Shown here piece by piece: positions 43,051 through 57,246 of a DNA stretch of 64,000 nt. The stretch comes from Flagellimonas meishanensis (GTDB taxonomy: Bacteria; Bacteroidota; Bacteroidia; Flavobacteriales; Flavobacteriaceae), in NCBI RefSeq assembly GCF_019880545.1, contig NZ_JAINVW010000003.1:186001-250000 (forward strand). The letters run 5' to 3'. Position 1 is the first letter of the stretch. The number at the start of each line of letters is the position of its first letter. The translations under genes were made by a program, and so were the position numbers. The notes under the pieces are model-generated. The model did no database searches. It had not been told where the DNA came from and saw only the letters and a program-made list of their open reading frames with translations.

Positions 43051-44073
43051 CTAAAGTTTTATGGGCATCATTTTGTCATATTTTGAAAACATCTTGCCAG
43101 CTTCAAACGTATTGAACCTATCCACATCTTTTTCACCTCTGAGCCATGCCACATAGATTGCTGGCGTGTTTATGCCTGCTTCATGCGAAAAGGGATAACC
43201 CCCTCCAAACCTTGGATTCATTTCCAGATAATAGACTTGCCCGTCCTTCACAAAAAAATCACAATCCATATTGCCAATATGCCTGGTATTCTCAGCGATT
43301 ATCCGAGCTGTTCTTGAAAATTCAGCATTGATCACGGATATGGCCTTGTCCGTTTCTCCGGAACGCATGGCCATTTTCTTTCTGATGAACGAGCCATAAT
43401 GGTTTCCCTCAAAATCATTCAAGATATCTATCCCATACTCTTCACCATCTATTTTTTCTTGGATTAAGATGCTCCTTTCGATATCGGCGGCACTGGCATC
43501 CTTTAAGATGGATTTTTTCACCTTTAGGGTCTGAAGTATATAAGCGAGCCTTAGCTCATCCTCATTTTCCGCAATGTCAATCGCAATTGAAGCGCTTCCC
43601 CATCTCGGTTTGATGATCAAGGGATACGTTACCTCACCTTGCTCTATGGCTTGGACGACTTCATCCACGGTTAGGTATGTTTTAGGTGTGCCAATCCCAA
43701 GGTTCTTGAAAAAGTTGAATGTTTTGTATTTATCGAAGGCAATGTCAATTACTCCTGTATCTGAAATAATCACCTTGGCACCTTCGGATTCCAATGCATC
43801 CTTGTGTTTTGATAAGATGGGCAGTTCAAGGTCGTTTAAAGAAATAATGGCATCGATTTCATGTTCACGGACCAACTTCTTAAGGATTAAAATATAGTCT
43901 TTATTGTAGATTGATGGAACTTGTATCGCCAGGTCGGCATCGACCAATGCAGGTGCGGTAAGTTGGCTGTCGGCCGCCATAACCATACCCTTGCCTTCAA
44001 GAGCTTCTTTAAAATAGTTGATCAAGTAATTGCGACGACCGGCGCAGGTAAAAAGAATGTTGGTTTTTTTCAT
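43051..44073 (-). CDS. ATP-grasp ligase (carbamoyl-phosphate-synthase/PylC-like)
   Basis: This 340-residue cytoplasmic enzyme has a Rossmann-like N-domain (ILFTCAGRRNYLINYF), then an ATP-grasp core (YPLIIKPRWGSASIAI, ILIQEKIDGEEYGIDI) and the metal-binding end YLEMNPRFGGGYP. ATP-grasp ligases join a carboxylate to an amine or thiol. Beside a CapK-like adenylating enzyme it may attach amino acids to sugars, or build amino-acyl groups, in a surface polymer. That role is inference. It is 12 bp after the CapK-like gene and ends at a strong terminator. Confidence 0.92.
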   Translation of the reverse strand: MKKTNILFTCAGRRNYLINYFKEALEGKGMVMAADSQLTAPALVDADLAIQVPSIYNKDYILILKKLVREHEIDAIISLNDLELPILSKHKDALESEGAKVIISDTGVIDIAFDKYKTFNFFKNLGIGTPKTYLTVDEVVQAIEQGEVTYPLIIKPRWGSASIAIDIAENEDELRLAYILQTLKVKKSILKDASAADIERSILIQEKIDGEEYGIDILNDFEGNHYGSFIRKKMAMRSGETDKAISVINAEFSRTARIIAENTRHIGNMDCDFFVKDGQVYYLEMNPRFGGGYPFSHEAGINTPAIYVAWLRGEKDVDRFNTFEAGKMFSKYDKMMPIKL

Positions 44074-44085
44074 GAAACAAGACTC

Positions 44086-45438
44086 CTAATGGGTTAAGGA
44101 TTTTTCTTTACGATTGTCTTTGGGGTTTTCAAGAAGCAAATTACGGGTGATTTTTCGTTTTTTGGAATTTAAAAGCGGGATTTCATTCACGTGCTCAACT
44201 GTAACCATTGCATCATCACCAATGATTTCCTTAAAGGACCGCACGAGTTCCATCTCCCTTGTGAAGGTTTCGTCAACGTTGAGTTTAATGGTGTATCTAT
44301 TCTTTTCATTTTGAACAAATTGCACTTGATTCAGTTCGGGGAACGAGGGCAGGAGGCTCATATACTTATAGGGACTGGTCATTTTTCCTTTGGTGTCCAT
44401 TAAAATGTCCGCTTTCCTTCCCTCAACCGATTTCAACACCGGGAATGGGCAGGAAGGTACCGTGATGAGTGCACCCACATCGCCAGTATCATATCGAATC
44501 ATAGGGGTGGCGTGGTTATATAGGTCAGTGATCACGATACGCCCAAGTTGTCCATGTTTTGCAGGTTTGTCTTCATTAAAATCCAGGATTTCCACAACAT
44601 AGCTGGCCCAATTGATGATGAAATAATCACCATCTATTGGTTGTTGGGCAATAATTCCATTCTCAAAATTGGAATATCGGGAAACCATGGGCGTGTTAAA
44701 ATAGTACCACATTTTGCTTCGAACGTGGTCGCCGAGACTTTCGGACATTCCAATTATGGATCGCACATTGCATTGCAATGGTTTTGAATTTGTTTTATCC
44801 AAATAATCGCAAATCTTCTCCAAACCAGAGGGGTAGCCCAGCCAAGCTTTGGGAGAGGGGTCCTTCTGAAGTTTTAGGAGCAGGTTTTTGATGTAACCCT
44901 CGTTTTTCAAGGCATCAATATTGATTTGGACTATATTCTGCAAGAAAGCAGGCAGTTTCTTTTTTTTCAGGTTCTTGTTCCACAATCGTACGTAAAGTAA
45001 CTTTTCACCAATGGTATATCCTGCTTGCGACGCAAAGTAGATGGTATCTGCTGTATTCCTTTCTTTTTTTCGCTGGGTTTGGTAGACCATAAAAGGAATT
45101 CCAGTGGACCCGCTGGTAAACATTTGATGGATCCTTTCCTTGGAAGCGTTTTTTATTAGCGTGCGATCAAAATTCGTTTTGATGATATTTTTATTGGTGA
45201 TTGGAAAATCTTCGAGTGTGCTGTAATTTTTCAGGTCACTATAGAATTCAGAATGGGTTACCGCTTTATCAAGCAATTCTCGTAAAGGCTTTTCCGTCCT
45301 TTTTTGCAAAGAATCAAAAGAATTTTCACCAAGGGTTTTTTGTATGTCCAAGAAATCATGCCGAATATTTCTACCTTTTATTCTATCCAAGGTCCAGAAG
45401 GCATGATAGCGCAAGTAGTTAAGGAGGCTACGTGTCAT
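44086..45438 (-). CDS. CapK-like adenylate-forming enzyme (phenylacetate-CoA ligase family), copy 1
   Basis: I place the start at 45438 (MTRSLLNYLRYHAFWTLD), because it matches the start of the paralogue at 52849 (MIRTLEKLRKGAFWTLD). The longer frame adds 20 residues with no match. The 450-residue protein shows TSGSTGIPF (phosphate loop), SRYSNFENGI and RYDTGDVG, the adenylation core. CapK-like members in polysaccharide loci activate an acyl or amino-acyl group, probably for transfer to a sugar. It pairs with the ATP-grasp gene 12 bp downstream. Confidence 0.92.
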   Translation of the reverse strand: MTRSLLNYLRYHAFWTLDRIKGRNIRHDFLDIQKTLGENSFDSLQKRTEKPLRELLDKAVTHSEFYSDLKNYSTLEDFPITNKNIIKTNFDRTLIKNASKERIHQMFTSGSTGIPFMVYQTQRKKERNTADTIYFASQAGYTIGEKLLYVRLWNKNLKKKKLPAFLQNIVQINIDALKNEGYIKNLLLKLQKDPSPKAWLGYPSGLEKICDYLDKTNSKPLQCNVRSIIGMSESLGDHVRSKMWYYFNTPMVSRYSNFENGIIAQQPIDGDYFIINWASYVVEILDFNEDKPAKHGQLGRIVITDLYNHATPMIRYDTGDVGALITVPSCPFPVLKSVEGRKADILMDTKGKMTSPYKYMSLLPSFPELNQVQFVQNEKNRYTIKLNVDETFTREMELVRSFKEIIGDDAMVTVEHVNEIPLLNSKKRKITRNLLLENPKDNRKEKSLTH

Positions 45439-45791
45439 TAATTTGAGGTTAAGGGGGCATTGTGACCGATAAAATAAACCCACATGTTGAAATTTCAATA
45501 TAAATACAGTTTATACCTACCGATTGATGTAAATATAAGCCATCCCTGGCAATTTGTTTTAAAATCTGTTTGTTCGTTAAGAAACTAACGTTGCATTCGA
45601 AAAAAAATTATTTGGAATTTAACACGGCGAACATTTAGGTAGTACTACTTTTTCTTGACACTTAAAAGAATACGATAATAGTTTTTTTTTGCATTTCATC
45701 GATAATTTATGCCAAAAATAAGTGAGACCCTTTAGGTGCTATAACTTTGTTATAAACACTGTTTCCGCTTCAGCCTTAAAGCCAGAATTAA
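45439..45791. other. 353-bp divergent regulatory region
   Basis: This AT-rich gap lies between the CapK copy 1 start (minus) and the FN3 gene start (plus). It contains the GTAGTACTAC palindrome at 45639-45648, an ATTTCATCGATAATT motif at 45693-45707 that recurs near 55.0 kb, and a TATAACTTTGTTATA palindrome at 45740-45754 that includes a -7 box. No gene is seen in it. Confidence 0.6.
45742..45749 (+). promoter_or_regulatory. -7 box of the FN3 gene inside a palindrome
   Basis: TAACTTTG matches TAnnTTTG exactly and lies 42 bp before the ATG. It is embedded in the perfect palindrome TATAAC-TTT-GTTATA (45740-45754), so a dimeric protein bound there would block the promoter. No consensus -33 box is found. 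Confidence 0.5.
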
Positions 45792-48152
45792 ATGATAAAA
45801 AAAATACTCTACTCCTTTGTTTTTCTTGGGACTTCTTTTGCTTTTGCACAGAACCTATATGATGATTCCAATGCCGCTTCCCCAGCAAATGAAGCCGATG
45901 CAACGACCGGTTGGGCAGGAACCGCCAATATTTTCTCAGATAATACGGATGTACAGTCAGGGAACTTTTCCTTGAGGGCTGTATCAAATGGCAACAATGG
46001 AACCTATGTTGCCTACACTTTTGATGCAGTTGTGGGCCAGGATTACAACATTACCATTTGGGCAAGGAGAGGTGCACAGTTCAACAATCCAGCATTTGCC
46101 AATTGGCAGGGAATGGCTGGATTTAGTACTACGCCCATAGGAACTGGTGTATGGACTCAATATAATTGGACTGTAACAGCGAATTCTGCCACACCTCAAA
46201 TACGTGTATACGTTAGTCCATGGTCTGCACGGCTGGTTGCTGGGAACACGGTATTTATTGATAATATTACTATTGTTGCTGATGGGTCGGATACTGAGGC
46301 GCCTAGCGCGGTAACGGATTTGTCGTCATCCAATACTACATTTAATTCCACTGATTTATCTTGGAGTGCATCCACGGACAATGTAGGGGTGACCAATTAC
46401 GAAGTTTTTCAGGATGGAGTTAGCATTGGTAATACGGGAACTACAACCTTTAATGTTACAGGCCTTGCTGAACTGACCAGCTATGATTTCACGGTCTTTG
46501 CCCAAGACGCTGCCGGTAACACTTCTCCCGTTAGTAACACAGAAACTGTGCTAACCCTTCAAGCTCCCGATACCGAAGCTCCTTCTGCGATAACAGATTT
46601 GGCCTCAGCCAATACCACCACAACCACAACTGACCTTTCATGGAGTGCTTCCACGGATAATGTAGGCGTGACCAATTACGAAGTCTTTCAGGATGGGGTA
46701 AGCATTGCCAACACGGGGACGACCACAGCTTTTAATGTCACAGGTCTTGCGCCTAGCACGAGTTACGACTTTACAGTTTTTGCAGAAGATGCAGCAGGGA
46801 ATGTTTCAACTGTGAGCAACACGGAAACGGTTGTTACGGCAGGTGTACCTGATACGGAAGCTCCAAGTGCTGTTACGGACCTGTCTTCAGCAAATACCAC
46901 TTTCAACAGCACTGACCTTTCCTGGAGTTCAGCAATAGACAATGTGGGTGTGACCAACTATGAAGTGTTCCAGGATGGGGTGAGCATTGGTAACACGGGA
47001 ACCACAACCTTTAATGTTACAGACCTTGCTGAACTGACCAGTTATGATTTTACGGTTTTTGCCCAGGATGCCGCAGGTAATACTTCCTTGGTAAGCAATA
47101 CAGAGACCGTGGTAACGCTTCAGGCTCCTGATACAGAAGCACCAACATCAGTTTCGGATTTAACTTCCTCAAACACTACCGCAACAACAACAGATTTGAC
47201 GTGGAGCCCATCCACAGACAATGTAGGAGTTACAAACTACGAAGTTTTTCAGGACGGGTTTAGTATTGCCAACACTGGTACTGCCACAACACTTAATGTT
47301 ACGGGCCTGACCCCGAGTACCAGCTATGATTTCACTGTCTTTGCACAAGATGCTGCCGGAAATGTCTCCCCGGTCAGCAATACAGAAACGGTTAGCACCC
47401 AGGGCGTTCCGGACACAGAGGCTCCCAGTGCTGTGACTGACCTATCCTCCTCTTCCACAACATCCACAAGCACAAGTCTCTCCTGGAGTGCATCTACAGA
47501 CAATGTCGCTGTCACCAACTATGAGGTTTTTCAGGATGGGGTCGGCATTGGAAATACTGGAACCAACACCACATTAAATGTAACGGGACTAACTCCAAAC
47601 ACTAGTTATGACTTCACCGTTTTTGCGCAGGATGCGGCATCAAATATTTCAACAGTGAGCAATACAGAAACAGTTGTTACCTTGGCTGGTACAGGGATTG
47701 TGGATTATACTTCCGAAAATTCCAACATGACCACTGTGGACTGGACGGCAAGGGATTTGTTCGCGAATAGAAATCTGGGAATTGGAACCACGGACACGCA
47801 GGGCTATCGATTGGCAGTTGCCGGGAATATGATAGCAGAAGGTGTTAGGGTGGAACTTCAAGGTAATTGGCCGGATTATGTTTTTGAGCCCGATTTTGAT
47901 TTGAAAGCATTGGAAGAGGTGAAAAAGTTTATTGAAGAAAATGGGCATTTACCCAATATTCCTAGTGCAAAGCAAATTGAAAAGGAAGGTATTGATTTGG
48001 GCACGATGAACGCCAAGTTACTCGAGAAAATAGAAGAGCTTACACTTTATTTATTGGCTCAAGATGCCAAGATTAAGCAACTGGAGTTAAAGAATGCCAA
48101 AATTGAAGATCTTTTGAAAAGGATTGAACAATTGGAGAGGAAACAAGAATAA
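45792..48152 (+). CDS. Surface protein with N-terminal carbohydrate-binding-like domain, five FN3 repeats and a chaperone-like C terminus
   Basis: This 786-residue exported protein has a signal peptide to about residue 20, then a beta-sandwich module resembling carbohydrate-binding domains. Five fibronectin type III repeats begin at residue 167, 93 or 94 residues each (DTEAPSAVTDL...TNYEVFQDG...SYDFTVFAQDAAGN). The last 150 residues (RNLGIGTTDTQGYRLAVAG, NGHLPNIPSAK, LLEKIEELTLYLL) match the Bacteroidota tail-fibre-type C-terminal segment ending in a coiled coil. Adhesion or matrix binding is likely. It starts a plus-strand set with the tyrosinase. Confidence 0.92.
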   Translation: MIKKILYSFVFLGTSFAFAQNLYDDSNAASPANEADATTGWAGTANIFSDNTDVQSGNFSLRAVSNGNNGTYVAYTFDAVVGQDYNITIWARRGAQFNNPAFANWQGMAGFSTTPIGTGVWTQYNWTVTANSATPQIRVYVSPWSARLVAGNTVFIDNITIVADGSDTEAPSAVTDLSSSNTTFNSTDLSWSASTDNVGVTNYEVFQDGVSIGNTGTTTFNVTGLAELTSYDFTVFAQDAAGNTSPVSNTETVLTLQAPDTEAPSAITDLASANTTTTTTDLSWSASTDNVGVTNYEVFQDGVSIANTGTTTAFNVTGLAPSTSYDFTVFAEDAAGNVSTVSNTETVVTAGVPDTEAPSAVTDLSSANTTFNSTDLSWSSAIDNVGVTNYEVFQDGVSIGNTGTTTFNVTDLAELTSYDFTVFAQDAAGNTSLVSNTETVVTLQAPDTEAPTSVSDLTSSNTTATTTDLTWSPSTDNVGVTNYEVFQDGFSIANTGTATTLNVTGLTPSTSYDFTVFAQDAAGNVSPVSNTETVSTQGVPDTEAPSAVTDLSSSSTTSTSTSLSWSASTDNVAVTNYEVFQDGVGIGNTGTNTTLNVTGLTPNTSYDFTVFAQDAASNISTVSNTETVVTLAGTGIVDYTSENSNMTTVDWTARDLFANRNLGIGTTDTQGYRLAVAGNMIAEGVRVELQGNWPDYVFEPDFDLKALEEVKKFIEENGHLPNIPSAKQIEKEGIDLGTMNAKLLEKIEELTLYLLAQDAKIKQLELKNAKIEDLLKRIEQLERKQE
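46290..47690 (+). repeat. Five tandem FN3-coding repeats
   Basis: Units start at 46290, 46569, 46851, 47130 and 47412; the steps are 279, 282, 279 and 282 bp. Units 1 and 3 resemble each other more than their neighbours (AELTSYDF versus APSTSYDF in units 2 and 4), pointing to duplication of a two-unit block. Confidence 0.9.
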
Positions 48153-48215: not shown

Positions 48216-49577
48216 ATGAAAGGGATCTTTTTTTTACTTGGTCTTTTAATTCTGCAATCCGGTTTTGGACAGAGTATCCGAAAAGGCTTTGATGAGATGA
48301 CCGATTACGAAATCTCAGAATTGGTAGATGCCTTTTACGAGTTAAGAAATGGCCCAGACCTATTTAATGATTTGGCGACCTTTCACGGAAATTTCTTCAA
48401 TTTTGACAATACTGCAGATCCAACGCGCCCGGACCTTCATTTTAATCTTCCCGATGAGTCGGAAAGGGAAATATTCCTGGCCTGGCACAGAAGACAAATG
48501 TTTGAAATGGAGCAAGCGGTGCAGGAAATCAATCCAGAAATTAGCTTGGGCTATTGGAACTCCATTATCTATCAATCACCGACCGATGCTATTTGGGATG
48601 AAAGCTTTTTAGGTAGTTTTAATGCTAATTGGTCATTAAATAGAAATCTTGCGAGTAACGGACCAATGCCAACTGCTACCGATCTTGACAACCTCATAAC
48701 CGAAACCAATTTTTTTACTTTTTCAAATAGATTAGAACGGCAGGCAATTCACAGGGGAGCCCACGTTTGGACCGGAGGAGCTATGCCTACACCACTTTCG
48801 CCAAGAGACCCGGTATTTTATTTCCACCATTCTCACGTAGATAAAGTTTGGCAGGACTGGGAAGAAATTCACCAAAGTTCTTCTTATATAACGACTTCCA
48901 TGTTACGGTATGATGGAACCTATGTATTTAATGGGGAGACAATTCCATTGGTTGACCCCAATGATATAACTGATTCAAGGGTCTATGGAGTGTTTTATGC
49001 CGAGAATGGTTTGGCACAGTTGGACAACTATATTGTAAGTAACACCTACAACCCTGAAGAGATTTTTTACTATCAATTTAATATCGAGGCTGGAAACAAC
49101 TTCATAGTTCCAGCGGGCACTGTGGCACGTTTTGAATCGGTTAACGAAATTAATTTGACACCAGGATTTGAGGCAGCCCCTGGTTCATCGTTTGAGGCGA
49201 GTATAGATGTGGTAAATGGAGGATTAAACAAGTCCTTAAGCCCAAGTAGATTGTTTAAACCCTATCCTTTCTCTGAAAAGCTTTTTGAACCCATTGTTTG
49301 GGAAGAAGGAGGTGATTTGCTGGAGGATAAGCCTGTTATAATCACTGCCCATCCCAATCCATTTACTGAAAAGATTACCATCAAACTTAGCAAACGAAGG
49401 GACTGTGTTATAGAGGTATTCAACATGATGGGCATGTTGATCAGGGAAGAAGCTTTTCAAAACACCGATACTTTGGTCATCAAAGATCTCTACGGACTAT
49501 CCTCAGGATTCTATGTCATACGTGTTACAGATGCTGAGGGAAACCTGCTTGTTGTAAAGCGCTTGATAAAAATGTAG
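48216..49577 (+). CDS. Tyrosinase-family copper enzyme with T9SS sorting domain
   Basis: I choose the ATG at 48216 (signal peptide MKGIFFLLGLLILQSGFGQ); an ATG at 48180 is possible. The 453-residue protein has a type 3 copper core. CuA histidines are H57 (TFHGNF), H75 and H91 (LAWHRRQMFEME); CuB histidines are H179 and H183 (HRGAHVWTGGA) plus H205 (DPVFYFHHSHVDKVW). A short beta segment (VPAGTVARFESVNEINL) follows, then a T9SS type A tail (HPNPFTEKITIKL, SSGFYVIRV). It would oxidise phenols outside the cell. It lies 63 bp after the FN3 gene. Confidence 0.94.
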   Translation: MKGIFFLLGLLILQSGFGQSIRKGFDEMTDYEISELVDAFYELRNGPDLFNDLATFHGNFFNFDNTADPTRPDLHFNLPDESEREIFLAWHRRQMFEMEQAVQEINPEISLGYWNSIIYQSPTDAIWDESFLGSFNANWSLNRNLASNGPMPTATDLDNLITETNFFTFSNRLERQAIHRGAHVWTGGAMPTPLSPRDPVFYFHHSHVDKVWQDWEEIHQSSSYITTSMLRYDGTYVFNGETIPLVDPNDITDSRVYGVFYAENGLAQLDNYIVSNTYNPEEIFYYQFNIEAGNNFIVPAGTVARFESVNEINLTPGFEAAPGSSFEASIDVVNGGLNKSLSPSRLFKPYPFSEKLFEPIVWEEGGDLLEDKPVIITAHPNPFTEKITIKLSKRRDCVIEVFNMMGMLIREEAFQNTDTLVIKDLYGLSSGFYVIRVTDAEGNLLVVKRLIKM

Positions 49578-49590
49578 GAAGCAGAATAAT

Positions 49591-49624
49591 AAAAGGGAGA
49601 GAGAAAATCGTCTCCCTTTTTTTT
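49591..49624 (+). terminator. Terminator of the tyrosinase gene
   Basis: AAAAGGGAGA (49591-49600) pairs with TCTCCCTTTT (49611-49620) around a 10-nt loop and runs into TTTT. The stem is symmetric with an A run on the other side, so it may also end the convergent HMA gene. Confidence 0.88.
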
Positions 49625-49626
49625 GC

Positions 49627-49989
49627 TCAATGCTTTCCATGGTCCATATGCATGGTATTTGGATCCCTGTATTTACAACATTCGGGAAGACTATCATACA
49701 CCTTCTGGGGAGCGGTAAATCCGTCAGAATCATGTCCCACAAGGGCAATTTCTTTTTTGATGGCATCAATGGAAGATTTATGCTCATCGATAATGGCATG
49801 GAATTCCTTGGTTTCGGAGTTCCAAGAGGCAAATTTGACCCCCTTAATTTTTATGGCAGCTTTTTCAATTCTGTTCTTGCACATACTGCAATTGCCCTTT
49901 ATTTCAAAATTCACTGATTTATTCTTGTCCTGGCCGTGGCCAAAAGCGACCGTTAAAATCGTCAATAAGATGAGAAACGTATTTTTCAT
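49627..49989 (-). CDS. Exported HMA-domain metal-binding protein
   Basis: This 120-residue protein has a signal peptide to about residue 19, then a heavy-metal-associated domain with GNCSMC (C34, C37), and a His-rich tail (PNTMHMDHGKH) plus a CC pair (PECCKY). It would bind copper or another soft metal in the periplasm. It lies 9 bp downstream of the TonB receptor on the same strand, a pairing common in flavobacteria. Next to the tyrosinase it could serve as a copper carrier; that is inference. Confidence 0.92.
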   Translation of the reverse strand: MKNTFLILLTILTVAFGHGQDKNKSVNFEIKGNCSMCKNRIEKAAIKIKGVKFASWNSETKEFHAIIDEHKSSIDAIKKEIALVGHDSDGFTAPQKVYDSLPECCKYRDPNTMHMDHGKH

Positions 49990-49998
49990 AGCTAAAAG

Positions 49999-52233
49999 TT
50001 AAATTTTATATCTGAATCCCGCATAGCAGGCACTACCCAAAACCGGACCAAACAGCACGGTACTGTCAAAAAAAGTTCCGAAAGGATCATTTGGCGCAAT
50101 AATAGGGGAGGACTGGGTAAAGTTATTGATATTTTCCCCACCAATATAGAACTCCAACTTGTTGGAGAAAACTTTGGTGACTTGGGCATTGATCAAAGTA
50201 TATGATGGTGCCCATCCATCCAATTGAAATTCACTTGGGTTTGACGAGGTATCTGGAAGACGCTGCCTTCCCAAGGTATTGGCAGTGAAATCAAAACGCC
50301 ATTGGCTTTCATTTTTCATTTGTGTTTCATAGCCCAAATTAATAAAGAACCGATAGGATGGTTGAAGTGGCCTGTCCAATGTGCCACTGTTGTAATCTGT
50401 GACCACATCAAAATACTTGTACGTGGCCCTCAAATAAAAATCTTGGAGTATTTCGTAGTTCAGGTCAACCTGGATGCTGTTGGAATAACTTTTCCCAGAA
50501 AGATTATAGAAAGAAATTGCCCTTGGATTTTCCCAGTCCACCACCACTTGGTCCTCAAAATCGGTTCTATAGTAGTCAATCGAGATATCCATGACCCGAT
50601 TCCACAGATACAATTTTTGGATGAAGCTAAGCCCGTAGTTCCAAGCTTTTTCAGGATTCAGGCCATAGTAGTTGCCATTGGTGCCGTTGATTACAATTTG
50701 TCTTGAGGAAGCGAACAATTGTTGGTTCTCGGCAAAAATATTTGCCCCACGTTTGCCGCGACCAAAGGAAGCCCTGAGGCTTGCCTTATCCCACAAGGAA
50801 TATCTCATATGGAATCGTGGTGTGAGAAAAGTGCCCAAATTGTTATGATTGTCCACCCGAAGCCCGGCAACAAGGCTCAACCCTTCCAAATTGTCATAAG
50901 AATATTCAAAAAAAGCACCAATTGCGTTGTCATTTCTTCTAAAAGGGATAGTGTTCACCATCTCCTTAAAACCATCATAGGTGAAACTTGCCCCTGTTTT
51001 GAACTTATTCTGGGTACTTCCAATGATACTGCTAAATATGAAATTGGAGTAAAAGGATTGGTGGTCAATGTCGTATTGGTTCAAGCCATAAAAGGAATTT
51101 TGGTCGTGGTTGCTGTAAGCAGTTTGAAATCCAAAACTTTGATAGGGCAGCTCGGGAAACACATAGCCCACTTTGGCGGAAAGGTCCAATCTTGATGTGG
51201 CGATCTCGCTTCCCCAAGCATTGGTGGTCAGCTTATCGGTTTCCAAATCAAAATCAGTTTGGCCAATTTCTTTGGTATCCGAAAGATATTGGATATTGGC
51301 GTAGCCCACCCATCCGCTCTCGGAATCCACAAATTGCCAGCGGTTCATTAGATTGACCTGTCTGGACAGGGGAGTGTCGAAAAAAGAATCATCATTGTTA
51401 TCAATATACCCATTTCTTAGATTGGCGTGAACGTACAAACCCACGCCCAACTCATCGGTAATGACATGGTTGAACCTGGAGTTGAATTCATAGCGTTCAA
51501 AATTGTTCGCGTACATGTTCAAAAAGAACCGTTTGTCCGTCAAGGGTTTCACCAATTCACTATTGATGTGTCCCGAGATACTCTCAAAGCCATTCAAAAC
51601 ACTTCCGGCACCCTTTGTGATCTGTATGCTCTCGATCCACGATCCGGGAATAAAGGAGAGTCCAAAAACTTGAGATGCTCCGCGAATTGCGGGCATATTC
51701 TCCTGGGTGAACATTAAATAAGGGCTGGTCAATCCCAACATTTGGATTTGTTTGGCGCCAAGAACGGCATCGGAAAGATTGACATCAACGGACGGATTGG
51801 TCTCAAAACTTTCGGAGAGATTGCAGCAGGCGGCCTTGAGCATTTCCCGACTGTCCACCGTGACCACATTCTGCGCCTTAAAAAGCGATTTTTGAAGCGG
51901 GGCCACCTGTTTTTCAACCACTACTTCATCCAGAACCACATTGGATATCAAAACAATGTTGCCCAAGTTAGGGCGGTTTACCGGAATGGTATCGGAACGG
52001 TAGCCCACAGAGCTGATCACAAGTTGTTTTAAACTGGGCTGATAGGAAATCTCGAACTTTCCCATGGAATCGGTGGTGGTGCCAATGGTACTGGACAGCC
52101 AATAAACATTTGCGTTAGGTAGAGGTATGGTTTTCCCCTTATCGTTGTATTCTACCACCCTTCCGTTCACCTGAAATTGCGCCTGGGCCTGCGAAAAAGC
52201 AAACATTATTAACAGAAGCAAAGATAATCTCAT
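49999..52233 (-). CDS. TonB-dependent receptor, probably for a metal
   Basis: This 744-residue protein has a signal peptide ending AQAQ, an N-terminal carboxypeptidase-like regulatory domain (FQVNGRVVEYNDKGKTIPLPNANVYW), a plug (KAACCNLSESFETNPSVDV, VFGLSFIPGSWIESIQITKGAGSVLNG) and a 22-strand barrel to the C terminus. The AACCNLSESFETN plug and an HMA gene 9 bp downstream are typical of receptors grouped with copper or other metal genes, not of SusC-type glycan receptors; there is no SusD gene. Metal uptake is the likely role. Confidence 0.93.
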   Translation of the reverse strand: MRLSLLLLIMFAFSQAQAQFQVNGRVVEYNDKGKTIPLPNANVYWLSSTIGTTTDSMGKFEISYQPSLKQLVISSVGYRSDTIPVNRPNLGNIVLISNVVLDEVVVEKQVAPLQKSLFKAQNVVTVDSREMLKAACCNLSESFETNPSVDVNLSDAVLGAKQIQMLGLTSPYLMFTQENMPAIRGASQVFGLSFIPGSWIESIQITKGAGSVLNGFESISGHINSELVKPLTDKRFFLNMYANNFERYEFNSRFNHVITDELGVGLYVHANLRNGYIDNNDDSFFDTPLSRQVNLMNRWQFVDSESGWVGYANIQYLSDTKEIGQTDFDLETDKLTTNAWGSEIATSRLDLSAKVGYVFPELPYQSFGFQTAYSNHDQNSFYGLNQYDIDHQSFYSNFIFSSIIGSTQNKFKTGASFTYDGFKEMVNTIPFRRNDNAIGAFFEYSYDNLEGLSLVAGLRVDNHNNLGTFLTPRFHMRYSLWDKASLRASFGRGKRGANIFAENQQLFASSRQIVINGTNGNYYGLNPEKAWNYGLSFIQKLYLWNRVMDISIDYYRTDFEDQVVVDWENPRAISFYNLSGKSYSNSIQVDLNYEILQDFYLRATYKYFDVVTDYNSGTLDRPLQPSYRFFINLGYETQMKNESQWRFDFTANTLGRQRLPDTSSNPSEFQLDGWAPSYTLINAQVTKVFSNKLEFYIGGENINNFTQSSPIIAPNDPFGTFFDSTVLFGPVLGSACYAGFRYKI

Positions 52234-52425
52234 TCCAAAGAGGCTTTGAAGGTGTAAAATTAAAGGTTTGCACAGTCAAGATTGAATTATTGCCCAGTAT
52301 TTAACACAGGGATGCAGTTCATAGATTTTTTTGACCTTTAACGGATTTTAAAATCTCTCGGATCCGTTTAGTGGTAATTTTACTTTGGATACGTGGGAAC
52401 ACTTCTGTTCGCATTATTTTTGTGT

Positions 52426-52791
52426 GTGATCAAGAATATCATTGTTTTTCTGTTGTTGGGTTGCACGATTTTGTTTTGGTGTTGTGGTGCTCATTTGTTT
52501 CAAAAAGAGAAATCGACCCAGATACGTGTGATCAACAGTTCAACGAATAGTTTTACCCATGTTTCCATGTTCTCCATGCCATTTAAGGATTTGCAACCAG
52601 GTGACAGTTCGGAGTTTAGGCTGCTCAGATATGATTCCTTAAGGCATGACCCGTTGATTTATTGTGTAAGTGGGGGCGTCAACTACGGGCGCTATTTAAA
52701 AATTCCCGAGGAGGGAGTTGATAAATACACTTACGTGATCGACAGTATCGGAAATGGACTGTTGCATATAAGCTCACGGGAGGGATTATAA
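52426..52791 (+). CDS. Small hypothetical envelope protein
   Basis: The frame opens at GTG 52393 and again at GTG 52426; I favour 52426 (MIKNIIVFLLLGCTILFWCCG, 121 residues) because it gives a compact hydrophobic N terminus with possible lipobox LLLGC. The rest is polar and strand-rich (IRVINSSTNSFTHVSMF, GDSSEFRLLRYDSLRHDP). I do not recognise a family. It is divergent from the TonB receptor and 57 bp upstream of CapK copy 2. Start and even coding status are uncertain. Confidence 0.6.
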   Translation: MIKNIIVFLLLGCTILFWCCGAHLFQKEKSTQIRVINSSTNSFTHVSMFSMPFKDLQPGDSSEFRLLRYDSLRHDPLIYCVSGGVNYGRYLKIPEEGVDKYTYVIDSIGNGLLHISSREGL

Positions 52792-52848: not shown

Positions 52849-54234
52849 ATGATAAGAACATTGGAAAAACTTCGCAAAGGTGCTTTTTGGACCCTCGATT
52901 GGCTTAAAGGTGCTCGAGTGTGGAAGCATTACAGGGAAATTACATATATTCAGGGCAACCCACTTTCCCAAAGAGCCACGGCAATCCGACAGGAACACCT
53001 TTCCAAAATATTGGACCATGCGGTGAGGACGGTCCCCTTTTATTCAGCACTGGCCGCAAGGAAAATGGACTTGGCAAAGTTTCCAATCGTTGACAAACAA
53101 TTGATACGAGAAAACTTTGAGGCATTCCGGAGCGATTCCTATAAAGACAAACACACCCATCAGGTGTTGACGAGCGGTTCCACCGGTAAACCTTTTAAAA
53201 TCCTTCAGGACAAAGCGAAGCGTGACCGCAACACTGCGGACACTCTTTTTTTCGCCAAGCGAGCAGGATACAATGTTGGTGCACGGCTTTACTATTTGAG
53301 ATTATGGGATAAACAGTACCAAAAAGGAAAAATCAAGTCCTTTGTGCAGAATATGGTCACTTATTCCGTTGATGAGCTTAACGATTCAAATTTGGCCAAG
53401 CTAGTAAGTGAATTGAACAAGGACAGGTCTTGCATTAACATCTTGGCTTACACCTCAGCCTTGCAGACCATCTGCGATTATTTGGAAAAAAACAATGCGG
53501 AACCTTTAAAAGGAAGGTTTTGCTCCATAATTGCCGTTGCCGAGGCACTTGGAAACGACGTACGGGAACAGATTGGCAAATACTTTGGTGTGGAAGCCAT
53601 ATCTAGATATTCCAACAGTGAAAATGGAATTTTGGCGCAACGGTTTCCCAAAACCGAATCCACGTCATTTGAGATTAATTGGGCCAGCTATCATGTTGAA
53701 CTTTTAGACCTCAATGAGGATAAACCGGTGGAGTTGGGGAAACCTGGCAGGATCGTGGTGACGGATTTGTTCAACTACTCCATGCCCATGTTGCGGTATG
53801 ACACTGGCGATGTTGGGATTATGGAAAAGGATGTAATCAGTGGCCATCTTACGTTCACCAAAATTGAGGGAAGAAAGATGGATATGTTCACCAATACCAA
53901 AGGCGAGTATATTTCATCACATATCATTCACCATATCCTTCAATTTAGGGGGATTGAACAATTTCAGTTCATACAGGAAGATTTTGATGAATATGTGATC
54001 AAATTGAAAGCATCAAAAAAGTTGGATGAGGAAGACGAAGGGGCACTTGTGAGGCAATATCAGGGATATTTTGGTCCTGAAGCCCATATCTCACTCATTT
54101 ATGTAGAGGATATTCCGTTATTACCATCCGGGAAAAGAAAGCTGGTATGGAACAATGCCATCCTTAAGCAGAAAAAATTGACAGAAAGGAAATCGGAGGA
54201 ATTATCCGGGTCTATCCCTGAACTCAACCCATGA
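52849..54234 (+). CDS. CapK-like adenylate-forming enzyme (phenylacetate-CoA ligase family), copy 2
   Basis: This 461-residue cytoplasmic enzyme is a paralogue of the gene at 44086-45438, sharing LTSGSTGKPF, FAKRAGYNVGARLYYLRLWD, SRYSNSENGILAQ, the ELLDLNEDKP region and LRYDTGDVG. The phosphate loop and adenylation motifs are intact. In capsule loci such enzymes activate an acyl or amino-acyl group. It is convergent with the sugar transferase and ends 23 bp before it. Confidence 0.92.
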   Translation: MIRTLEKLRKGAFWTLDWLKGARVWKHYREITYIQGNPLSQRATAIRQEHLSKILDHAVRTVPFYSALAARKMDLAKFPIVDKQLIRENFEAFRSDSYKDKHTHQVLTSGSTGKPFKILQDKAKRDRNTADTLFFAKRAGYNVGARLYYLRLWDKQYQKGKIKSFVQNMVTYSVDELNDSNLAKLVSELNKDRSCINILAYTSALQTICDYLEKNNAEPLKGRFCSIIAVAEALGNDVREQIGKYFGVEAISRYSNSENGILAQRFPKTESTSFEINWASYHVELLDLNEDKPVELGKPGRIVVTDLFNYSMPMLRYDTGDVGIMEKDVISGHLTFTKIEGRKMDMFTNTKGEYISSHIIHHILQFRGIEQFQFIQEDFDEYVIKLKASKKLDEEDEGALVRQYQGYFGPEAHISLIYVEDIPLLPSGKRKLVWNNAILKQKKLTERKSEELSGSIPELNP

Positions 54235-55185: not shown

Positions 55186-57246
55186 ATGAAAATTTCATAT
55201 CCCCACCTACCTACTATGCTTTTTATGGTCGTTTTTTTGCTCACTTTTGCATCCTGTGAAAAAGATAGCGACCTTTTTTACGAGGCGATCATAGAACAAG
55301 AAGAGGAAATTGAGGAACAAAGTGATTCTCAAGATGGTACTTCAGATGGTTCAGACAACGATAATGAAGCCAATGGCGGAAACAGTGGTTCTGATGGTCC
55401 TCCTCCTCCTCCAGAGGATCCGAATTTTGAAAATACCAACAAAATTTCTGGAGTCTACTATCCTAAGTCTGCAGCGGATATTTCGGACCCGAATTATGCC
55501 GAGTATAAAGCGGTTATTAACAATTCTTTCGATTGTTCAGGTTGTACATTTTCTGAAAATCAGACCATCGAACCTGCAGGAGGTATCATTACCGGAACAA
55601 ATATCAATTTGAACGGAGCTTTTATTGAGACCGCTTACAAGCAGGCTTTTTCTCCTGAGGTAACGTTTACGGAAATATACAGCAAATCCAGATTGACTCC
55701 CGAAATTTTTGGTGGGAATGGAGGGGACAACATTGCTGATGATGCTCCAATATTGGCTATGATAAGGAATAGTACTTATGCTTTGGGAGCAACAAATGCT
55801 GTTTACATAAAAAATCGAGAAGACACATATAATAGAGCTGGAGAATTCAATTGGAACATGAATGGAAGTATCGTAAGAACTACCAACTCTTCTAATTTGA
55901 GTCATGGAGGTGACGTCAGTAATCAAACTAAGTACCTGTTTAAATTCCAGATTCCCGTACTCGTTTTATATGATGGTGAGTTTGACGGTCAGGATTTAGC
56001 TAGTAGAGCCATTTACATTGTCAACAATGAGCGATATGATATTAGAAACATTCATGTCCATAACTATCTTGCACCTGCAGGGGCATACGCACGAGGCACG
56101 GGGATTAAGTGGGAAATTGGAGATAATTTTGTGGAAGGGCAGTTTCATGGAAACGTCATTGAAAATATAGGTGCTACGACTGATGGAAATGCAAACAATG
56201 CGCCCTATGGAATAGCTAAGGCAATTTCGTTTCATATAAAGACAAACAACGAATCAAATCTGTATTTTTCCGGAAACAGATATGAGAACATCTATGGTGA
56301 CGATGCTGAGGGATTCATCAATAATCGAGGTTCTGGTTATAGTTATGCTAATAATAAAACCAACTTTTACTTTGAAAACGATCAGTTTATTGCATGTCAA
56401 AGGCGAGCGGTTAAAGTAAATGCTTCAAATGTTCATTTTAACAATTGTCTTTTTAGAAGTGCTACAAATCCACCTATATTCAATGGTGCCCAAGCGGCGT
56501 TGGTAAATGTTTTTTCCATTTCAAGCGGTCAGGAAATACGTAATATAAGAATGACAAATTGTGATGTTGAGATTGTTGGTGAATCATCAAATAGCGCGTT
56601 CGCTGTCACCGATGCTACCGATGCGGTATTCGAATACAATACATTTAGTGCGAATTATATAAGAAGTAGCGGTTCAGTCGGTTTTGCAGCCAACGGTACC
56701 CAAAATGGATTGTATGATGGGTACTTGGACAATTCTGTAATCTTTAGAAACAACACCATTGAAAATCTCCGTATTAATCTTGGGGTAGTATATAACCCTC
56801 AGAATGGAGGCCCAATTGTTGAAAATAATATCCAGAACCTTACACTGGATAGAAGTGTAGGATTGTACTGGGCGGCATTACGTCTTGTTTCAACTTCGGG
56901 ACAGAGCAACGACTTCACATTGAAAGACCATACCGTAAATGTTGACATTCAATCAACTACAGGCCTTAATCTATTTGGCGGTGTTCTAAATACGCAAGGA
57001 TCGGAACCAAAAAACTTAACTTTTGATAACGTTGCCATCAACTATAGTGGAGGTTCTCCTGTTTATGCATTTGCCTATACGGGAAAGAATAATACTTCAG
57101 CAGATTTTGATAACTCAAATATGATAAAGGATTGTTCCATTTCAGGTGCAAGTGGAAATGGAGCTATTTTTGTCAAAGGTTCAGATAAATCGGTAGTAAT
57201 TCAAAATAGCTTTGGGGACAATAATTCTGCAATAACTACTAATTAA
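55186..57246 (+). CDS. Right-handed beta-helix-like lipoprotein of unknown function
   Basis: This 686-residue protein has a lipoprotein signal (FLLTFASC), then an acidic linker (about residues 30-80, EEEIEE and repeated DGSD, ending PPPPPEDP). The body is N-rich and strand-rich with repeats of the x-N-N-x-F/I type (FHGNVIENIG, NLYFSGNRYENIY, VHFNNCLFRS, VIFRNNTIENLR), the mark of a right-handed parallel beta-helix. Such folds often are polysaccharide lyases or epimerases, but no known catalytic motif is visible. Its codon use is clearly AT-richer than the housekeeping genes. It faces a sugar transferase and precedes gmd, followed by a good terminator. Confidence 0.82.
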   Translation: MKISYPHLPTMLFMVVFLLTFASCEKDSDLFYEAIIEQEEEIEEQSDSQDGTSDGSDNDNEANGGNSGSDGPPPPPEDPNFENTNKISGVYYPKSAADISDPNYAEYKAVINNSFDCSGCTFSENQTIEPAGGIITGTNINLNGAFIETAYKQAFSPEVTFTEIYSKSRLTPEIFGGNGGDNIADDAPILAMIRNSTYALGATNAVYIKNREDTYNRAGEFNWNMNGSIVRTTNSSNLSHGGDVSNQTKYLFKFQIPVLVLYDGEFDGQDLASRAIYIVNNERYDIRNIHVHNYLAPAGAYARGTGIKWEIGDNFVEGQFHGNVIENIGATTDGNANNAPYGIAKAISFHIKTNNESNLYFSGNRYENIYGDDAEGFINNRGSGYSYANNKTNFYFENDQFIACQRRAVKVNASNVHFNNCLFRSATNPPIFNGAQAALVNVFSISSGQEIRNIRMTNCDVEIVGESSNSAFAVTDATDAVFEYNTFSANYIRSSGSVGFAANGTQNGLYDGYLDNSVIFRNNTIENLRINLGVVYNPQNGGPIVENNIQNLTLDRSVGLYWAALRLVSTSGQSNDFTLKDHTVNVDIQSTTGLNLFGGVLNTQGSEPKNLTFDNVAINYSGGSPVYAFAYTGKNNTSADFDNSNMIKDCSISGASGNGAIFVKGSDKSVVIQNSFGDNNSAITTN

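Follow-up and report, generated by a model that had tools for sequence, protein, structure and literature searches.

Bacterial tyrosinases are known from systems that can be compared with a locus of Flagellimonas meishanensis (contig NZ_JAINVW010000003.1, positions 186,001 to 250,000; this whole stretch of 64,000 nucleotides is called the window hereafter), in which a tyrosinase-fold protein tagged for the type IX secretion system (T9SS) is encoded next to a scaffold-like protein, a TonB-dependent receptor, a small carrier and an adenylate-forming ligase. In the mel operon of Streptomyces, the tyrosinase MelC2 has as its partner the caddie protein MelC1, which is described in excerpts of two articles as helping the enzyme to load copper (PMC6312201, PMC11608171). 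The window locus resembles this operon by its secreted tyrosinase with a small secreted partner and by the same core fold of the enzyme, and it differs from it by the T9SS tag and by a score of 98.8 with the MelC2 model, whose cut-off is 450. The mel operon is not known to include scaffold, ligase and receptor partners. In the bagremycin/ferroverdin system, a synthetase (BagE/FevW) and an o-aminophenol oxidase (BagH/FevF) likewise bring a ligase and a tyrosinase-like oxidase together in one system, but the window proteins score 24 of a cut-off of 800 bits and 61 of 630 with the corresponding models. No export tag or scaffold is known from that system. The tyrosinase of Bacillus (Priestia) megaterium is the best structural match of the window enzyme (Z 22.4), which has in addition two C-terminal domains, a spacing of X15 instead of X8 in its CuA motif, and Arg or Ala in its group at position HisB1+1, where the B. 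megaterium enzyme has Asn (excerpt of PMC11608171).

The comparison of related loci suggests a conserved extracellular phenol-oxidation module composed of the scaffold, the tyrosinase, the small protein ORF132 and the ligase AMPb, joined in one lineage by a receptor/carrier pair; we give this reading close to an even chance of being right. No such module was found described in the open-licence literature, as far as titles and the beginnings of abstracts go. The parts of the locus are the following.

45792..48152, + strand: scaffold protein 'FN3', with signal-like N-terminus, CBM4/9-like N-domain (about residues 20-164), five fn3 stretches and conserved C-terminal region
48216..49577, + strand: putative type 3 copper oxidase of tyrosinase fold; its N-terminus is signal-like, and a 3-coathanger stack domain precedes the T9SS type A sorting domain
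49588..49623, between the convergent genes: inverted repeat with 13-nt arms, 92% complementary, a possible two-way terminator
49627..49989, - strand: small secreted HMA-like CxxC carrier with His/Met-rich tail, of a tyrosinase-linked subfamily; weak HMA/CopZ/MerP matches
49999..52233, - strand: TonB-dependent receptor of a tyrosinase-linked subfamily; it has a CarboxypepD_reg-like N-domain and, close to where the plug starts, an invariant Cys-Cys
52393..52791, + strand: ORF132, small secreted or lipoprotein-like protein with uncertain start codon, predicted to be beta-rich with an Ig-like fold
52849..54234, + strand: AMPb, CapK/PaaK-like adenylate-forming ligase, the next gene downstream; model matches below cut-off

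Conservation of the Module

The tyrosinase loci compared numbered 40, namely the window, 32 named loci and seven from further genomes of the family. Nearly all belong to one family, and several stem from metagenome bins. The family search set comprised 249 genomes, 11 with and 238 without tyrosinase. The Fisher p values below ignore kinship and do not count as independent evidence genome by genome, and the three trees (receptor, tyrosinase and ligase) were quick ones with a single support value (SH-aLRT) and without outgroup root. Two of the loci (L045 and L046) are very similar; a single contig of Mangrovimonas sp. TPBH4 carries both, some 330 kb from each other, by duplication or assembly artefact. 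The tyrosinase tree was built without L046, a near-double of L045 that has an identical ligase and a 21-kb stretch that is not identical.

The gene order is more than chance, because the receptor is present in 27 of the 40 compared loci. The four-gene set of the original prediction, made from the window's sequence alone, is nonetheless not the widest conserved unit: this unit comprises the scaffold, tyrosinase, ORF132 and AMPb, which are linked and co-occur. FN3 lies directly upstream of the tyrosinase in 35 of the 40 loci, with one ATP-grasp-like gene between them in three, and is absent from the locus in two of the 40 (L032 and L053); in G245, the genome of L032, the N-domain is found elsewhere, at a contig end. 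Strong N-domain matches (E≤1e-30) occur in ten of the 11 tyrosinase genomes vs. none of 69 others (Fisher p 7e-12), two of which have weak ones. That the FN3 protein or a surface polymer might be the target of the enzyme, as had been suggested, gains support from this near-constant partnership.

The domains of the scaffold differ in how firmly they are recognized. The fn3 match is strong (Pfam, 1.8e-41, five stretches), and the CBM_4_9 match of the N-domain is weak (E 0.12; 4.4e-15 for a distant relative). The length of the protein and the number of repeats vary widely, the N-domain and the C-terminal region, which has a coiled-coil look by eye, being kept in most copies. The N-domain may be a sorting or anchoring tag. 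Two copies of it also open a 1629-aa protein whose sequence has an RHS-like look by eye, and shorter N-domain/FN3 proteins encoded near similar genes have it too (L143:3743-8632, L141:4214-5683, L142:5278-6531).

ORF132 was found by profile in 31 of the 40 loci, and its relatives are present in seven of the 249 family genomes, all seven of which bear tyrosinase, with the two genes adjoining (7/11 vs. 0/238; Fisher p 3e-11). In loci without receptor it is the next gene after the tyrosinase. The AF2 (AlphaFold2) model, at a predicted local distance difference test (pLDDT) of 89, is beta-rich and Ig-like, and the best Foldseek match is the extracellular domain of PepT2 (E 4.2e-4). AlgF domains match the fold at Z 6.7, within the range of common arrangements; a Pfam AlgF match of one relative (E 0.15) was too weak and was not used. 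As a small, secreted protein that adjoins the enzyme, ORF132 was considered as a caddie and the idea was dropped: Pfam gave no caddie match for it and two relatives, and MelC1 is not in the listed fold matches, a listing that does not rule it out.

The ligase follows the tyrosinase in 29 of the 40 loci, with at most one other gene between them (receptor, carrier and ORF132 not counted). A ligase match at E≤1e-90 is found in nine of the 11 tyrosinase genomes vs. 27 of the 238 others, 19 of these 27 having been taken into the ligase tree. In this tree of 72 rows, from which ligase ORFs (open reading frames) of less than 400 aa were dropped, tyrosinase-downstream ligases fall into two clades (25 rows, SH-aLRT 94; 8 rows, SH-aLRT 89). 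One gene was entered twice (L052/L174), and L045/L046 are identical. All 33 rows of the two clades come from tyrosinase-bearing genomes, two of them (from G030 and G245) from genes away from the enzyme. Outside both clades stand 20 rows from 19 tyrosinase-less genomes and 14 other ligases of the loci. AMPb matches the models for the DVU_1553 AMP ligase, FlxY, PaaK and BagE/FevW, and since all these scores are far below cut-off, an aryl acid as its substrate is a lead only. A second CapK/PaaK-like ligase, AMPa, is encoded together with a PylC-like ATP-grasp protein (44086-45498 and 43051-44073) upstream of FN3 on the opposite strand, and falls outside both AMPb clades.

The tyrosinase is patchily distributed: the genus has it in two of 16 genomes, the family in 11 of 249. 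In a draw of 395 genomes from the phylum, no genome but that of the window yielded a relative (E≤1e-15), and the 21 rows listed all belong to the same family; this draw says little on spread into other classes.

The Tyrosinase

The original prediction of a T9SS-tagged type 3 copper oxidase at 48216-49577 was borne out. The Pfam tyrosinase domain (PF00264) is matched at 83.9 bits against a gathering cut-off of 22.6 (E 2.7e-23), and the sorting domain exceeds two cut-offs (Por_Secre_tail PF18962, 35.9 vs. 27; TIGR04183, 35.3 vs. 23). By this C-terminal domain the enzyme is a putative T9SS cargo, and its secretion is predicted. It is the sole PF00264 gene found in the genome, matched in two stretches of one ORF. 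Six histidines (H57, H75, H91, H179, H183, H205) and Glu 174 are invariant in all 25 rows of the alignment, which covers the window and 24 of 39 loci, and alignment and fold together suggest that the histidines are the copper ligands. The AF2 model, with a mean pLDDT of 68 and values below 50 at residues 64-84 round H75, aligns with the B. megaterium tyrosinase over 226 residues (root-mean-square deviation 2.6, 30% identity) and with the Streptomyces tyrosinase of the caddie complex at Z 21.8.

The CuA spacing is H-X17-H-X15-H in 25 of 25 rows, with X15 between the second and third His, vs. a textbook motif of H-Xn-H-X8-H (PMC11608171), and residue HisB1+1 is Arg or Ala in all 25; in excerpts of that article, Asn at this position is not a required mark of tyrosinases. 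On account of the X15 spacing, the enzyme is filed under the PF00264 domain family, outside the canonical subgroup. With these two departures it is a type 3 copper protein and not a canonical bacterial tyrosinase of the MelC2/BmTYR type, and it may hydroxylate phenols or oxidize catechols only. In genome G080, a second ORF of 1017 aa with a tyrosinase-like stretch (L051:12507-13310) adjoins the first tyrosinase; it was dropped from the rows compared.

The Receptor/Carrier Pair

A TonB-dependent receptor convergent with the tyrosinase had been predicted and is confirmed, with CarbopepD_reg_2 and Plug above the Pfam cut-offs (Plug, 34.2 vs. 23.9 bits). For the HMA carrier of the same prediction, the convergent position and a CxxC motif hold, together with a signal-like N-terminus and a His/Met-rich tail; the family assignment is less firm, with an HMA (PF00403) match of 17.8 bits vs. 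a cut-off of 24.8 and NCBIfam CopZ/MerP matches below cut-off, for which the protein is called 'HMA-like' only. Receptor and carrier run convergent to the tyrosinase, with the inverted repeat between the convergent ends. At this repeat there is a terminator-like match on the - strand, weak taken alone, as seven such sites occur in the region vs. 4.3 expected. In loci without the pair, the ORF132 match lies at most about 75 bases after the tyrosinase match, and the pair thus sits, in antisense orientation, as an insertion separating two genes that adjoin elsewhere.

The receptor at the locus belongs to a branch of its own. In the receptor tree, 27 linked receptors and the unlinked one of G030 stand on one side (SH-aLRT 100), with 36 others opposite. 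In G030, the tyrosinase is on another contig, and the receptor pair has as its neighbour a ligase that falls into the second linked clade. Among the matches listed, the separate branch occurs in five of 263 genomes, all five with tyrosinase. When the 249 family genomes were compared with two queries, the best four candidates per genome being scored and the linked and housekeeping scores judged by eye, four receptors scored higher with the linked query among the matches listed, all in tyrosinase genomes. Within the genus (16 genomes, 14 of them covered by the receptor search, G642 being left out), a linked-type receptor (81% identical) is present in the one tyrosinase genome searched and in none of the 13 without tyrosinase, and seven of the 14 have a receptor of the housekeeping type.

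The carriers point the same way. CxxC is present in 26 of 26 linked carriers and in all 19 others, among which that of G030 was counted; a tail motif, [DN]P-x4-[ML]-x-H, is found in the 26 linked carriers and in that of G030 vs. none of 18 housekeeping ones (the alignment does not include the carrier of L018, for which the ORF was miscalled). In the tyrosinase tree, loci with the pair group with G030 in a 28-member clade (SH-aLRT 92), every member of which is known to have a linked-type receptor. The simplest reading is a single recruitment of the pair, followed by its retention in the 28 sampled descendants.

The housekeeping type is a cluster of Flavobacteriaceae composed of an HYC_CC_PP gene, a receptor and an HMA gene; it shares with the linked pair the protein families, the receptor-then-carrier order and the Cys-Cys of the plug. 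The linked pair differs by its own receptor branch and carrier tail. Of 20 receptor neighbourhoods, 19 are of the housekeeping type, and in all 19 an HYC_CC_PP-type gene, so named from the copy of the window genome only, adjoins or nearly adjoins the receptor; it does not adjoin the linked-type receptor of G030, and there is none at the window locus. PurH/mreB are near the receptor in 17 of the 20 neighbourhoods and groEL in 15. The window genome itself also has a housekeeping receptor, 58% identical to the linked one. Its cluster (L114:7840-11761), of a kind also seen in relatives, lies near groEL and comprises an HYC_CC_PP gene, a receptor with plug Cys-Cys, a CxxC carrier and an HMA-membrane protein. 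The latter is often found in housekeeping clusters, and its nearest models are CopZ, below cut-off. The neighbourhood of the housekeeping receptor was considered as proof of copper and set aside: among its recurring clusters no copper exporter was seen, not all neighbours being named.

Two TonB-dependent receptors, OprC and CrtA, are tied to copper in excerpts of the literature (PMC11213822, PMC12914433), and an OprC-like receptor is counted there among the copper genes of a member of the Flavobacteriaceae (PMC11213822). Neither the window receptor nor the housekeeping copy encoded in that genome contains the OprC motif given in that article, CxxxM/HxM, and CrtA is said to be without conserved Cys (PMC12914433, excerpt), vs. 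an invariant Cys-Cys in the receptor type of the window.

Proposed Function and Alternatives

In the mechanism that we propose, the linked receptor would bring copper, perhaps in chelated form, across the outer membrane, and the CxxC carrier would hold it in the periplasm, where the tyrosinase might be loaded before or during its export by the type IX system. At the surface, the enzyme would oxidize phenolic groups of the scaffold, of an aryl group activated by AMPb for attachment to an exopolymer, or of both, and the resulting quinones would cross-link or harden the coat. We infer that support for these steps falls from the dedicated metal supply to the exopolymer or scaffold as target, then to aryl-acid activation by AMPb and finally to cross-linking. 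Copper is the best guess for the metal, because the pair is co-inherited with an enzyme that uses copper and a carrier of the CxxC type would suit a thiophilic metal; that the pair supplies it to the tyrosinase can be inferred with good reason, another metal being possible, and in this sense the receptor is probably a metal receptor. The near-constant partners argue that the enzyme acts on something that the cell provides, at its surface, which would be the scaffold, a ligase-modified polymer or both. Cross-linking would follow from quinone chemistry, and it is plausible for the polymer or the scaffold. A further-reaching version makes the system a bacterial counterpart of sclerotization or mussel-type adhesion, in which the ligase would add phenolic acyl groups to an exopolymer or scaffold, the CBM-FN3 protein, whose number of repeats varies, would organize this material and the T9SS-exported oxidase, served in one lineage by a copper receptor and carrier dedicated to it, would cure it into a cross-linked coat. 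ORF132 would then be a maturation or docking factor of the enzyme not described before. This version we regard as doubtful. If the proposal is true, outer-membrane metal uptake would be tied to one named extracellular copper enzyme, and marine bacteria would offer a compact genetic system for testing enzymatic coat hardening, with G030, where the pair is unlinked, and the lineages without the pair as natural controls.

A number of observations weigh against this proposal. No receptor relative is found at E≤1e-60 in four of the 11 tyrosinase genomes (G021, G077, G080 and G182), and three others (G017, G040 and G113) have a housekeeping-type receptor only; for this reason, the enzyme can do without a dedicated pair, which is dispensable. 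At the level of the 39 distinct loci, 12 are without adjoining receptor, of which nine are clear cases, one is that of G030, with the receptor elsewhere in the genome, and in two (L044 and L053) the sequence stops too close to the tyrosinase, leaving 37 that can be judged; the receptor of the original prediction is thus lacking at nine of 37. A single recruitment, in a single clade, means that shared descent could account for much of the co-occurrence. The OprC motif is missing from the linked receptor, which has its Cys-Cys in common with the housekeeping type. As to the enzyme, Lys at HisB1+1 cut the activity of a plant enzyme to about 3% and 0.2% (PMC11608171, excerpt), and with Arg or Ala at that position the enzyme may hydroxylate phenols only weakly. 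Tyrosine is not abundant in FN3 (2.7%), and G017, the most divergent tyrosinase genome, has no N-domain, ORF132 or close ligase. AMPb, with its scores far below cut-off, has no Pfam match at E≤0.01, and 11 of the 40 loci, including those of Arenibacter (L035, L037-L039) and L036, have no such ligase, two of the 11 ending too soon.

What the pair does is the point on which an alternative bears most directly. It could be a passenger, a housekeeping copy that landed between the tyrosinase and ORF132 and serves the general uptake of copper or another thiophilic metal. Recurrence of receptor and HMA gene without tyrosinase, which the original prediction had taken, together with a response to another metal, as speaking against it, is indeed the rule in the family at large, where receptor relatives are present in 155 and HMA relatives in 189 of the 249 genomes, mostly without tyrosinase. 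A passenger would also accord with the antisense position of the pair between genes that lie at most about 75 bases apart elsewhere, with the four tyrosinase genomes devoid of receptor relatives, and with the housekeeping receptor retained in G000, G229, G245 and G643, the four genomes of these searches with the linked pair beside the enzyme. Against it stand the receptor branch found only with tyrosinase, the distinct carrier tail, and the maintenance of the pair in all 28 sampled descendants, even unlinked in G030. We consider a passenger unlikely on balance, and the prediction of a dedicated metal supply, like the earlier interpretation as a whole, is partly supported: it gains support from the linked subfamily and loses some from the family of the pair at large.

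Other alternatives concern the substrate. The enzyme might oxidize phenols from outside, such as algal phenolics, phlorotannins or catechols, for detoxification or competition, with a CBM-like scaffold attaching it to polysaccharide of algae or of the cell itself and the ligase belonging to a neighbouring polysaccharide locus. The patchy distribution of the tyrosinase, the CBM4/9-like domain and the marine, often alga-associated genera would suit this explanation; the ligase, however, follows the tyrosinase even where no sugar-transferase gene adjoins, as in the Mangrovimonas-type loci L041, L045 and L049, and the linked ligases form clades of their own, so that we hold the explanation to be rather improbable. 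A melanin or pigment pathway, in which a ligase like FlxY and BagE/FevW and an oxidase like BagH/FevF would yield a small aromatic pigment or metabolite, is suggested in that both proteins match, below cut-off, the models of the two partners in a single known pathway. This is very unlikely in view of the T9SS tag and of the scaffold as near-constant partner, and the gene-order table, in which most neighbours are clustered and unnamed, holds no further recurring pathway gene.

Other Features of the Window

About 47 kb from the tyrosinase, positions 47-709 of the window resemble the C-terminal part of a resistance-nodulation-division (RND) periplasmic adaptor of the CusB/CzcB type (weak, below-cut-off matches), with what we take to be a DUF3347-like tail. 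Positions 55186-57246 encode a 686-aa secreted lipoprotein-like protein with no match in Pfam (E≤0.01) or NCBIfam (E≤0.001), relatives of which are found at a similar place in many Flagellimonas/Allomuricauda loci.

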